Source: an uncultured Bacteroidia bacterium (GTDB lineage: Bacteria > Bacteroidota > Bacteroidia > Bacteroidales > Prolixibacteraceae). Taken from it: DNA of 43,840 nt. How positions within the stretch are numbered: the first letter of the stretch is position 1; every line of letters starts with the position of its first letter. The position numbers were made by a program, and so were the translations under genes. Positions 1 to 4,963 of this stretch are shown here, piece after piece. Under the pieces are notes generated by a model. The model was not told where the DNA came from. It searched no databases and was given only the letters and a program-made list of their open reading frames with translations. Location of the stretch: the NCBI GenBank assembly GCA_903897145.1, contig CAIUAN010000004.1, positions 1-43,840 on the forward strand. The letters run 5' to 3'.

Positions 1-1368
1 GGAAGAATATCTGAGCCTGCATCTAAGGGAATTACGGAGCAATTGGTTTCTAAGGGCTTTTTGGCTGGCAGGATGAAAACTGGAACTCCAGTTCGGATCG
101 ACAAGAGAACGATCGATTTTGACCGTCTAATTCGTCAGGATGGCGATGAAGTAACGAATCAATTTAGCTTCCTTCCAAAGTCAAGTGAAGAGCTCCCTAA
201 GCTCCCTTGCTATATTACTTATACGAATGCAAAGGTTCATGCTATAATCGAAACTGGGTTCAAGGATAGTCCACTTTTTGATGGGACGATCCAAGGGTTA
301 GGCCCGCGCTATTGTCCAAGCATCGAAACTAAATTAATTACGTTCGCCGACAAGGATCAACATCAATTGTATTTGGAACCTGAGGGTGTTGATTCATTAG
401 AGTACTATTTGAACGGGTTCTCCTCTTCCTTAAGTTGGAGGGTTCAAAACGACGCCATACATGCTATTCCTGGGTTAGAGAATTCTAAAATTATGAAGCC
501 GGGTTATGCGATCGAATACGATTACTTTATCCCTACTCAGTTAAATCATACCTTAGAGACTAAATTAGTCCATAATTTATTCTTTGCTGGTCAAATAAAT
601 GGCACTACTGGTTATGAAGAGGCAGGTGCTCAAGGGATTATGGCTGGAATCAATGCACATCTTAAGATAAATAATCTAGATCCATTGGTACTTTCTCGAA
701 GCGAGGCCTATATCGGAGTATTGATTGATGATTTGGTAACCAAAGGTGTTGATGAGCCCTATCGAATGTTTACTTCCCGGGCTGAATATCGTTTGCTCTT
801 AAGGCAAGACAATGCCGATGAGCGCCTCACTCCTATCGGACATAGAATTGGATTGGCGACAGATGAGCGACACGATCGTCTTATTCGTAAGGTGGCATTA
901 AAAGATAATCTGGTTAGCTTTTGCAAGAATTTCTCTGTGAAGCCCGATTTAATTAATGAGTTTTTGGGTTCCAAAGGATCTAGTCTTTTGCGACAAAACA
1001 TAAAATTAGATGCTCTTATCAAGCGTCCTCATATTGATATTTTTGAACTAGTAGCCGTGATTAAACCTCTTCAAGATATACATGACTCCTTGGAGTTATC
1101 TTTGCAACGTGAAGTGTTTGAATCTGCAGAAATTCTAATCAAATATTCGGGCTATATTGAACGAGAAAATATCGTGGCAGAAAAATTACAGCGATTAGAA
1201 AACGTTCAAATTTTGGAGAAGTTTAATTACAATTCAATCGAATCTTTGTCAACCGAGGCGCGTCAGAAATTAGAGAAGGTTAAACCAAAAACCATTGGTC
1301 AGGCCGCTCGAATTCCAGGGGTCTCTCCTAGCGATATTAATGTGCTTTTGGTGCTGATGGGCAGATGA
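1..1368 (+). CDS. mnmG: tRNA uridine-5-carboxymethylaminomethyl modification enzyme MnmG (5' end missing)
   Basis: MnmG (GidA) is the FAD-dependent partner of MnmE that builds the cmnm5 group on the wobble uridine of some tRNAs in the cytoplasm. The frame is open from base 1, so the gene starts outside the window. About 455 of the usual 620 or so residues are visible, and the N-terminal dinucleotide-binding Rossmann motif is missing. Both family signatures are present: GPRYCPSIE at visible residues 101-109 and GQINGTTGYEEAGAQG at 197-212. The C-terminal helical domain is complete and ends at a TGA whose last base touches the parS-like palindrome. An internal TTG at base 43 is not a plausible start because the conserved sequence continues upstream of it. 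The identification is secure. Confidence 0.96.
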   Translation, partial: GRISEPASKGITEQLVSKGFLAGRMKTGTPVRIDKRTIDFDRLIRQDGDEVTNQFSFLPKSSEELPKLPCYITYTNAKVHAIIETGFKDSPLFDGTIQGLGPRYCPSIETKLITFADKDQHQLYLEPEGVDSLEYYLNGFSSSLSWRVQNDAIHAIPGLENSKIMKPGYAIEYDYFIPTQLNHTLETKLVHNLFFAGQINGTTGYEEAGAQGIMAGINAHLKINNLDPLVLSRSEAYIGVLIDDLVTKGVDEPYRMFTSRAEYRLLLRQDNADERLTPIGHRIGLATDERHDRLIRKVALKDNLVSFCKNFSVKPDLINEFLGSKGSSLLRQNIKLDALIKRPHIDIFELVAVIKPLQDIHDSLELSLQREVFESAEILIKYSGYIERENIVAEKLQRLENVQILEKFNYNSIESLSTEARQKLEKVKPKTIGQAARIPGVSPSDINVLLVLMGR

Positions 1369-1384
1369 TGTTCCACGTGGAACA
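1369..1384. promoter_or_regulatory. parS-like ParB-binding palindrome
   Basis: TGTTCCACGTGGAACA is a perfect 16-bp palindrome, and the flanking A and T extend it to 18 bp (1368-1385). It fits the chromosomal parS consensus TGTTnCACGTGnAACA bound by ParB/Spo0J. It starts directly after the mnmG stop codon, between mnmG and apt. gidA/mnmG is classically close to the origin and to parAB in many bacteria, which adds weight. ParA and ParB are not in the window, so the function is inferred from sequence alone. Confidence 0.8.
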
Positions 1385-1411
1385 TTTTGAATTTTTCTAA
1401 AATTATAATCT

Positions 1412-1936
1412 ATGGATCTCGCTTTTGTAAAGCTGTCGGTTCGCAATATCCCCGATTATCCAAAGCCGGGAATTAATTTTAAAGATGTCTCTTCCGCCTT
1501 TCGGGATGGCGAAATATTCCATTTTATATCAACGTCGATTGCCGATCATTATTTGAATCTGGGTATTACGAAGGTGCTAGGAATCGAGTCCAGAGGTTTT
1601 ATTCTGGGCGGAAGTCTAGCCGATCGATTAGGCGCTGGATTTGTTCCAATTCGCAAATCAGGTAAATTACCTGCAGCTGTATTTTCCCAATCCTTCGATT
1701 TAGAATATGGGTCCGATACGTTGGAGATTCATCAAGATGCCTTGTCTTCAGATGACGTGGTTTTGATCCATGACGATATCTTGGCTACCGGCGGTACTAT
1801 GGGAGCTGCGATAAGTCTTGTCCGCCGTTTTGGCATCTCCAACATCTATGTGAATGCATTTATTGAACTTGATTTTTTAGGCGGTAAAGAGAGTTTAGAT
1901 CCCACAGTACCTGTTTGGTCATTGATTCATTTTTAG
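1412..1936 (+). CDS. apt: adenine phosphoribosyltransferase
   Basis: Apt salvages adenine by joining it to PRPP to give AMP and pyrophosphate, in the cytoplasm. The 174 residues match the compact length of the family (about 170-183). The type I phosphoribosyltransferase PRPP loop is clear at residues 116-129 (VVLIHDDILATGGT). The N-terminal region with RNIPDYPKPGINFKD (11-25) and the LEYGSDTLEIHQDA segment (97-110) are typical of Apt. The ATG at 1412 lies 27 bases after the parS-like palindrome. uvrC follows 9 bases after the stop, so the two are probably co-transcribed, and mnmG-apt-uvrC is a familiar Bacteroidia order. Confidence 0.95.
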   Translation: MDLAFVKLSVRNIPDYPKPGINFKDVSSAFRDGEIFHFISTSIADHYLNLGITKVLGIESRGFILGGSLADRLGAGFVPIRKSGKLPAAVFSQSFDLEYGSDTLEIHQDALSSDDVVLIHDDILATGGTMGAAISLVRRFGISNIYVNAFIELDFLGGKESLDPTVPVWSLIHF

Positions 1937-1945
1937 ATCAACGGT

Positions 1946-3754
1946 ATGAACTCTCCGAAATTATTCTCCGAACATCTGCGCGAATTGGTCTCCTTGCTGC
2001 CCGAATTGCCAGGTGTTTATCAGTATTATAATTCGGAGGGAAAGATCATCTATGTTGGGAAGGCAAAAAATTTGCGCAAGCGCGTAGCCTCCTATTTCAC
2101 CAAACATCACGACAGTCAAAAGACCGTTATTCTGGTTCGCAATATTGCCGATATAAAGCATATCGTGGTCGATAGCGAGGAAGATGCTTTGCTATTGGAG
2201 AATAACCTAATTAAGAAATACCAACCCAGGTATAATGTGCTTCTGAAGGATGATAAATCATTTCCTTGGATTTGTATCAAAAATGAGCCATTCCCTCGAG
2301 TCTTTTTTACCCGTAATGTGATTCGCGATGGTTCTCAGTATTTTGGTCCCTATACCTCCACGGTTATGGTGCGAACATTATTGGATGTTGTTAAACGACT
2401 CTATCCAATTCGGAATTGTAACTTAAATTTATCACCCTCATCAGCTGACAAAAATAAATTTAAAGTTTGTTTGGAATATCAAATAGGGAACTGTATGGGC
2501 CCATGCGAAGGTCATCAAACTTCGGAAGACTATCTCGAAGGAATAGCACAAATTAAGGATATTCTGAAGGGAAATCTTTCCGCCGTTGTCGCTCATTTGT
2601 CCAAAAAAATGACTTTAGCTGCAGAAGAATATAAGTTCGAATTGGCTGATAAAATAAAAAATAAGCTATTTATACTTGAAAATTACAAGAGTAAATCCAC
2701 AATTGTAAGTTCCTCGATTACAAATGTAGATGTATTTTCATTGGACGAAGATGAGCATTATGCCTACGTGAATTTCTTAAGAGTCGTAGACGGAGCAATT
2801 ATACAAGCCCATACTTTAGAGATCAAAAAGCGACTTGCGGAATCAAAAGAGGAGCTACTAGCATTGGGTATTATTGAGATTAGACAGAAATTCTTTTTGA
2901 ATTCGAAAGAGATCCTGCTCCCCTATTTATTAGACATCGAATTGAAAGATGTGAAAATGATTGTTCCACAGATTGGGGATAAGCGAAAACTATTAGAGCT
3001 CTCAGAGAGAAATGTTAAGTATTATAAATTAGATAAAAATAGGCAACAGTCGTTGCGAACTCCGATGGATCGGACCGATCGGTTGCTAAAACAAATGCAA
3101 CAAGATTTAAGATTGAAAGAGTTGCCGCGACGAATTGAGTGCTTTGATAACTCAAATATTCAGGGCGCTTATCCGGTCGCTGCCTGTGTGGTTTTTATAA
3201 ATGGGAAGCCCGCAAAACGAGAGTACCGACATTTTAATATTAAAACCGTTGAAGGCCCAGATGACTTTGCATCTATGGAAGAGGTTATCTTTCGGAGATA
3301 TCAGCGCGTGTTAAATGAAGGGACTGAGCTTCCACAGCTAATCTTAATTGATGGAGGCAAGGGTCAGTTAAGTTCCGCCATAAATTCATTGGAGAAATTA
3401 AATCTTAGAGGCACAATTCCAGTCGTCGGAATTGCAAAAAGATTGGAAGAGTTGATGTATCCCGATGATCCAATTCCGCTTTATTTGGATAAAAATTCTG
3501 AAACTCTTCGAATTCTACAACAGCTCAGGAATGAGGCACACAGATTTGGAATTACCTTCCACCGGGATAAGCGATCTAAGGCGTTTATCTCAAATGAGCT
3601 TTCTAATGTCGTTGGAATAGGTGAAAAGACGATTGAATTGCTTATGCAGAAGTTTAAATCAGTCGCACGATTAAAAGTTACACCCGTTGAAAAAATAGCC
3701 GGAGTTGTTGGGAAAGATAAAGCGGAAAAGATTTCGGACTATTTTAAAATTTAG
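1946..3754 (+). CDS. uvrC: excinuclease ABC subunit C
   Basis: UvrC makes the dual incisions in nucleotide excision repair after UvrA/UvrB damage recognition. The 602 residues are standard length. In order: an N-terminal GIY-YIG nuclease domain (GVY at 23-25, YVG at 36-38, for the 3' cut); four cysteines around residue 155-190 that resemble the Fe-S motif reported in UvrC; a UVR segment around 205-240; the RNase H-like 5' nuclease domain with CFDNSN (D401) and IDGGKGQ (D469); and a C-terminal helix-hairpin-helix region (about 550-600, VVGIGEKT). All domains are intact. The gene ends with TAG, which shows that amber is an ordinary stop here. It converges with lplA. Confidence 0.97.
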   Translation: MNSPKLFSEHLRELVSLLPELPGVYQYYNSEGKIIYVGKAKNLRKRVASYFTKHHDSQKTVILVRNIADIKHIVVDSEEDALLLENNLIKKYQPRYNVLLKDDKSFPWICIKNEPFPRVFFTRNVIRDGSQYFGPYTSTVMVRTLLDVVKRLYPIRNCNLNLSPSSADKNKFKVCLEYQIGNCMGPCEGHQTSEDYLEGIAQIKDILKGNLSAVVAHLSKKMTLAAEEYKFELADKIKNKLFILENYKSKSTIVSSSITNVDVFSLDEDEHYAYVNFLRVVDGAIIQAHTLEIKKRLAESKEELLALGIIEIRQKFFLNSKEILLPYLLDIELKDVKMIVPQIGDKRKLLELSERNVKYYKLDKNRQQSLRTPMDRTDRLLKQMQQDLRLKELPRRIECFDNSNIQGAYPVAACVVFINGKPAKREYRHFNIKTVEGPDDFASMEEVIFRRYQRVLNEGTELPQLILIDGGKGQLSSAINSLEKLNLRGTIPVVGIAKRLEELMYPDDPIPLYLDKNSETLRILQQLRNEAHRFGITFHRDKRSKAFISNELSNVVGIGEKTIELLMQKFKSVARLKVTPVEKIAGVVGKDKAEKISDYFKI

Positions 3755-4886: not shown

Positions 4887-4890
4887 CTTG

Positions 4891-4963
<73 letters not shown>

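Follow-up and report, generated by a model that had tools for sequence, protein, structure and literature searches.

A predicted chromosomal parS site directly after the mnmG stop codon in an uncultured Prolixibacteraceae bacterium, and its place beside mnmG in many Bacteroidota

What is the perfect palindrome that begins where mnmG ends in the genome of an uncultured Bacteroidia bacterium of the Prolixibacteraceae? The window analyzed here is a stretch of 43,840 nucleotides that is contig C4 from its first base. Its initial annotation had proposed an 18-bp ParB recognition site between mnmG and apt, in the origin-proximal domain of the chromosome. Our comparisons predict that the palindrome is very probably a chromosomal parS. 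We give a probability of roughly 0.9 to the fuller reading, in which the site is an origin-proximal parS that is anchored to mnmG in many Bacteroidota independently of where parAB and dnaA lie. The features concerned are as follows.

1..1368, plus strand: mnmG (gidA), 3' part (ORF 43-1368; TIGR00136, 546.1 bits against a cut-off of 524.85)
1369..1384, no strand: parS-like 16-bp palindrome TGTTCCACGTGGAACA, predicted from its sequence, its uniqueness and a position kept in relatives
1412..1936, plus strand: apt, adenine phosphoribosyltransferase (ORF and profile match)
1946..3754, plus strand: uvrC (ORF and profile match)
4890-4963, minus strand: tRNA-Met (cat)

The first base of the palindrome directly follows the TGA stop codon of mnmG. 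The gap from this stop to the start of apt is 43 bases, 27 of which separate the 16-mer from the apt start codon. The 18-bp version (1368-1385, ATGTTCCACGTGGAACAT) includes a flanking A...T. Base 1368, its outer A, is the A of the stop codon (1366-1368) in the mnmG frame, and its outer T is lost among relatives. For these two reasons the conserved unit is, on the sequences compared, the 16-mer and not the 18-mer.

The window opens within mnmG, and the 5' part of the gene sits on contig C9. Positions 1-531 of C9 overlap positions 1-531 of the window with 93.4% identity, so the contig break inside mnmG is probably due to strain variation. Among the best 80 of 589 named MnmG matches, the closest were from Mariniphaga (63%), Alistipes (61%) and Marinilabiliaceae (58%), which makes Bacteroidales the most likely order.

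The proposed fit to the ParB consensus was borne out: the 16-mer has 0 mismatches to TGTTYCACGTGRAACA, and it is the sole match at up to 1 mismatch in the whole genome (G000; 2,805,095 bases in 69 contigs, 97.28% complete). A scan of the 69 contigs with the CC..GG form likewise returned this site as the sole match at up to 1 mismatch, and its one 2-mismatch match (C6:36074) is about the number expected by chance. Within the window the 16-mer is the sole match at up to 3 mismatches; shuffled windows gave a mean of 0.10 matches at this threshold, with one match in 10 of 100 shuffles. Under a composition model (61% A+T), 0.0004 exact copies are expected in 2.8 Mb.

To see how far the site is kept, we assembled a near-relative set of 61 genomes, the present one and 60 relatives, with mnmG assembled in 54. 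At least one site with up to 1 mismatch to TGTTYCACGTGRAACA was found in 54 of the 61 genomes; six of the seven siteless genomes also lack mnmG in the assembly, and only G037 has mnmG but no site. In the genus, the site lies no more than 5 bases after the mnmG stop in all 16 genomes with mnmG, directly abutting it in 14. In the rest of the family it lies at -1 to +8 of the stop in 16 of 17 (11 directly abutting), so that in genus and family together 32 of 33 genomes have it no more than 8 bases from the stop, 25 of them abutting. In the rest of the order it lies within 300 bases of the stop in 17 of 21. Several genomes without the CC..GG form, which is the parS form in Pseudomonas, have either the canonical TT..AA form or a mixed one in the same spot.

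Over all genomes with mnmG, our own included, the site thus holds the same position in 49 of 54. The five exceptions are G037; G028, a member of the same family whose one site (1 mismatch) lies 2.6 kb past the mnmG stop, beyond uvrC; G053, in which the mnmG match is incomplete and the one site match is on another contig; and G038 and G056, where site matches exist at positions that are not among the matches listed. Random scatter of such matches around the chromosome, which the initial annotation had named as a result that would count against it, was not what we found. The 61 genomes hold 99 site matches in total, compared to 11 (in 10 genomes) for the reversed pattern, and 92 of the 99 could be placed: 73 lie no more than 10 kb from mnmG, and 19 are on other contigs. 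Five of these 19 are a second site, TGTTCCACGTGAAGCA, which is described below. The other 14 are without explanation and are about as many as the matches of the reversed control, with exact or near-exact matches among them in G022, G010 and G053.

At the level of the phylum, we examined 80 named mnmG loci. These are the best 80 of 589 MnmG matches, a set from which very near records may be missing. With up to 1 mismatch, and with "at stop" defined as -20 to +300 of the mnmG stop, the site was at the stop in 40/80 loci, just upstream of the start in 31 of 75 testable loci, at either place in 58/80, inside mnmG in 12/80 and anywhere in the fetched stretch in 65/80; the remaining 15/80 had no match. 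Allowing 2 mismatches raised the number with a site near the stop to 48/80. By comparison, each of 30 shuffled palindromes gave 0/80 at the stop, and a scan of the 80 loci with the reversed consensus produced one match in total.

Genomes of one or two contigs gave a similar picture. In 12 of these (G028 from the family and 11 from the class), mnmG was at most 5 kb away for 26 of 29 matches, which were spread over 11 of the 12 genomes, and the reversed pattern gave 5 matches. The matches not within 5 kb were both of those in G062, which has no site near mnmG, and one in G175. A set of 14 genomes from more distant parts of the phylum had mnmG in at least 10, and in 7 of those 10 a site lies at most 5 kb away from it. 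No site was found in G189 and G241, and G204 has three, 12-18 kb from mnmG. As far as these sequences indicate, parS in many Bacteroidota is anchored to mnmG, being found at the stop, at the start or up to a few kb away. What our comparison adds to the first reading is that parS commonly resides at mnmG in this phylum, with parAB and dnaA elsewhere. The element is of a standard kind, as the initial annotation had rightly read it, in a notable and widely conserved place.

A palindrome at the end of a gene could also act at the RNA level. Read as an intrinsic terminator stem for mnmG, it would have 8 pairs, an ACGT loop and a T-rich tail, and a terminator scan did flag it, with the tail TTGAATTTTT; the scan gave 2 such sites in 1.2 kb, compared to 1.0 (sd 0.9) in shuffles. 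However, at 44 stop sites of the named loci the 10 bases after the site contain no more Ts than those on the other side (mean 3.36 vs 4.09). The variable pair at these 44 sites, read on the mnmG strand, is C.G in 20, C.A in 10, T.A in 8 and T.G in 6; the pair-breaking C.A is no rarer than T.G, which keeps a wobble pair. Because the variation does not keep RNA pairing, the palindrome behaves as a DNA site and not as a terminator, and the pattern fits a site that would be read by a symmetric dimer. Equivalent sites upstream of mnmG, inside it or beyond uvrC also argue against a terminator, which we regard as very unlikely.

Alternatively, the resemblance to parS could be accidental and the palindrome the operator of a regulator of mnmG-apt-uvrC, in keeping with its position in the 43-base gap before apt. 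Yet the site stays at mnmG in loci with no apt match within 1.5 kb (L006, L007, L009 and L021) or no uvrC match (L007 and L009). Other named loci have it at the start of mnmG or inside the gene, and the TT..AA form that replaces it fits the ParB consensus too. An operator is therefore highly improbable. Pure chance has nothing in its favor except the small size of the palindrome. With 0.0004 exact copies expected and the same position in 49 of 54 mnmG-bearing genomes, a chance palindrome is ruled out by conservation, and we give it practically no weight. This leaves the parS reading, under which a partner protein would be encoded in the same genome.

A ParB homologue, the presence of which the initial annotation had treated as essential, is indeed encoded, on contig C5. 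It is the one protein in the genome over the family cut-off (TIGR00180, 190.3 bits vs 58.45). A ParA-like ATPase frame directly precedes it, making a single parA-parB pair that is on neither C4 nor C9. The ParA-like protein resembles several ParA-family models; its name reflects resemblance and position, since it was over no NCBIfam cut-off among the 25 matches listed.

The ParB has the CTP-binding motifs GERRxRA and ENIQRE. Four positions that distinguish ParB from Noc, and their meaning, have been described (PMC7383237). With residue numbers assigned by motif and not by alignment with the Caulobacter protein, our ParB has R and G at positions 173 and 201, as in ParB, where Noc has Q173 and R201. 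These residues, together with N178, K171, Q162, R204 and GERRxRA, are kept in 30 of 30 ParBs (our own and those of 29 relatives). All 30 have K instead of S at position 172. Position 184, which is described as variable among ParBs (PMC7383237), is K in 12, as in Noc, and R in 18. Judged by its sequence, our ParB is parS-type rather than Noc-type at the two most diagnostic positions.

A Noc-binding site has a related protein family and a palindrome in common with our site, and it was considered as a candidate. Our ParB aligned to ParB/Spo0J and to Noc structures with nearly equal quality, and K184 is common to Noc. We rejected this candidate on the R and G at two of the four specificity positions and on the Noc model, which scored 248.8 bits, under its cut-off of 315.

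From the known biology of ParABS systems we infer how the site may work. The CTPase ParB, encoded beside parA on C5, would recognize the 16-mer palindrome, load there with CTP and close as a clamp. The clamp would then slide into the flanking DNA, over mnmG and apt-uvrC. The ParB-loaded site would serve as a handle for ParA, which would move the newly copied origin region. Loading of SMC at the site is not assumed, because no prokaryotic SMC (TIGR02168) was over cut-off in the 97% complete genome, which has three weak partial matches only. Two gut Bacteroidetes are likewise described as having no known condensin (PMC10197239).

Does the site lie near the replication origin? We sampled GC skew in four complete relatives, using 20 stretches of 20 kb each in G255, G191 and G227, which are related at class level, and 39 in G028, the one complete genome from the family. 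Sampling in 20-kb stretches sets the resolution at about 0.1-0.3 Mb. The origin was fitted with a two-switch model in which the terminus was constrained to lie 30-70% of the circle away from the origin. In three of the four genomes the skew origin was at mnmG and parS, not at dnaA: 1.43-1.58 Mb with parS at 1.55 Mb in G255; 1.59-1.76 Mb with parS at 1.59 Mb, the edge of the interval, in G191; and 0.99-1.21 Mb with parS at 1.00 Mb in G227. Taken as the origin, dnaA scored -0.020, -0.026 and 0.018 in G255, G191 and G227, compared to best scores of 0.052, 0.068 and 0.054.

Gene-strand bias placed the origin of G191 where skew did. It placed those of G255 and G227 at 1.77-1.93 Mb and 1.23-1.43 Mb, at least 0.2 Mb from parS in both, with parS in the 85th and 94th percentiles, respectively. 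The best skew origin of G028 was 3.08-3.26 Mb while parS is at 3.99 Mb, ranking in the 82nd percentile by skew but only the 41st by gene strand; a local change of skew sign about 8.5 kb from the site depends on a single 2-kb bin. The skew of G028 is thus ambiguous, and its gene-strand bias gives no support for an origin at parS.

In our own contigs, G exceeds C in every 2.5-kb bin of the first 27 kb of the window. On C9, read in the same orientation, C exceeds G from 2.5 to 15 kb left of mnmG, and between about 4 and 15 kb most genes are on the opposite strand. The G minus C count amounts to +831 for the window and -311 for C9, so the local skew flips near mnmG, although the flip may mix strains, given that C9 and the window share only 93.4% identity in their overlap. 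The proposed origin-proximal domain is supported by the skew of three of the four complete relatives and by this local flip, while G028 leaves it ambiguous.

The initial annotation had also proposed plotting the matches against dnaA. The site is 0.4-1.8 Mb from dnaA in 11 complete or two-contig relatives, never closer than 0.42 Mb, and our own dnaA is on another contig. A dnaA-based test of the origin would have misled, because the matches do not cluster there. Exact DnaA boxes (TTATNCACA) occur twice in the window (33983 and 42300) and once in the first 20 kb of C9, with no cluster. Clusters of exact boxes lie 1.7-2.8 kb beyond the mnmG stop in Runella (L176, 12 boxes), Roseivirga (L144, 4) and Lunatimonas (L172, 3), and these are candidates for an oriC beside the parS-mnmG region. 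In gut bacteria, dnaA does not always coincide with the origin as defined by parS clusters and skew (PMC10197239). Taken together, parS at mnmG probably marks the origin region in many Bacteroidota though dnaA lies elsewhere. The gene dnaA is often used as the origin marker of draft genomes and fails in three complete relatives here; parS together with mnmG would offer a simple way to anchor the origin in Bacteroidota.

How does the site compare with known systems? Like the reference parS TGTTTCACGTGAAACA used in PMC10197239 and the B. subtilis parS TGTTNCACGTGAAACA tabulated in PMC7022226, it is a 16-bp palindrome with a CACGTG core and GTT/AAC arms, and unlike the reference it has CC..GG half-sites. 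As in other chromosomal ParABS systems, the genome encodes ParA and ParB, and the site is origin-proximal by skew in three relatives. Unlike the usual chromosomal parS cluster, there is one good site here, and parAB does not adjoin it.

The genes parA, parB, gidA (mnmG), gidB and others are thought to derive from an ancestral origin cluster (PMC2099444). In line with such a cluster, mnmG is still next to the segregation site, and in three relatives also to the skew origin; unlike it, parAB and dnaA are here on other contigs. We consider it fairly likely that throughout Bacteroidota and in some neighbours parS has been fixed to mnmG (at the stop, at the start or within the gene), that it remained at the origin when parAB and dnaA moved away, and that a single site can suffice as the whole centromere and serve as a general origin marker. 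This would suggest that centromere and origin remain linked over evolutionary time, whereas the genes for their proteins relocate.

Origins at mnmG have been placed by Ori-Finder and skew in two Flavobacteriaceae, Mariniflexile (PMC11278836, explicitly not at dnaA; the legend of a figure labels oriC and ter opposite to the text) and Algorimicrobium (PMC12843772). Both agree with the location seen here, and a parS site goes unmentioned in the available parts of these two papers. An earlier description of parS at mnmG in Bacteroidota is possible; the portions of the literature covered by our search contained no such report.

Further sites accompany the one at mnmG in some relatives. The second site TGTTCCACGTGAAGCA is found 6.5-7.2 kb from mnmG, on its other side, in four genomes of the genus (G002, G004, G009 and G014), and the identical letters occur on contigs without mnmG in G007, G008, G011, G012 and G017, giving 9 of 18 genus genomes with our own counted in the 18. 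The corresponding place on our C9 is between two long frames and carries three changes. The second site is therefore likely to be intergenic, but this is not proven, as stop-to-stop frames on differing strands cover it in the four relatives. Given the three changes, our genome may rely on one good parS site, although C9 may derive from another strain; this hints at a ParABS system that could operate from a single such site. Five loci of the same family (L102, L109, L110, L111 and L118) have a further parS-like site 0.2-1.1 kb beyond uvrC.

Two other arrangements were seen among the named loci. In L150, L157, L163, L173 and L180, parS-like sites inside mnmG recur at a position about 280-310 bases before the stop. 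Arrays of parS-like sites (up to 2 mismatches) extend over about 1 kb upstream of mnmG in Flavobacterium (L166, 12 sites) and Terrimonas (L184, 9 sites).
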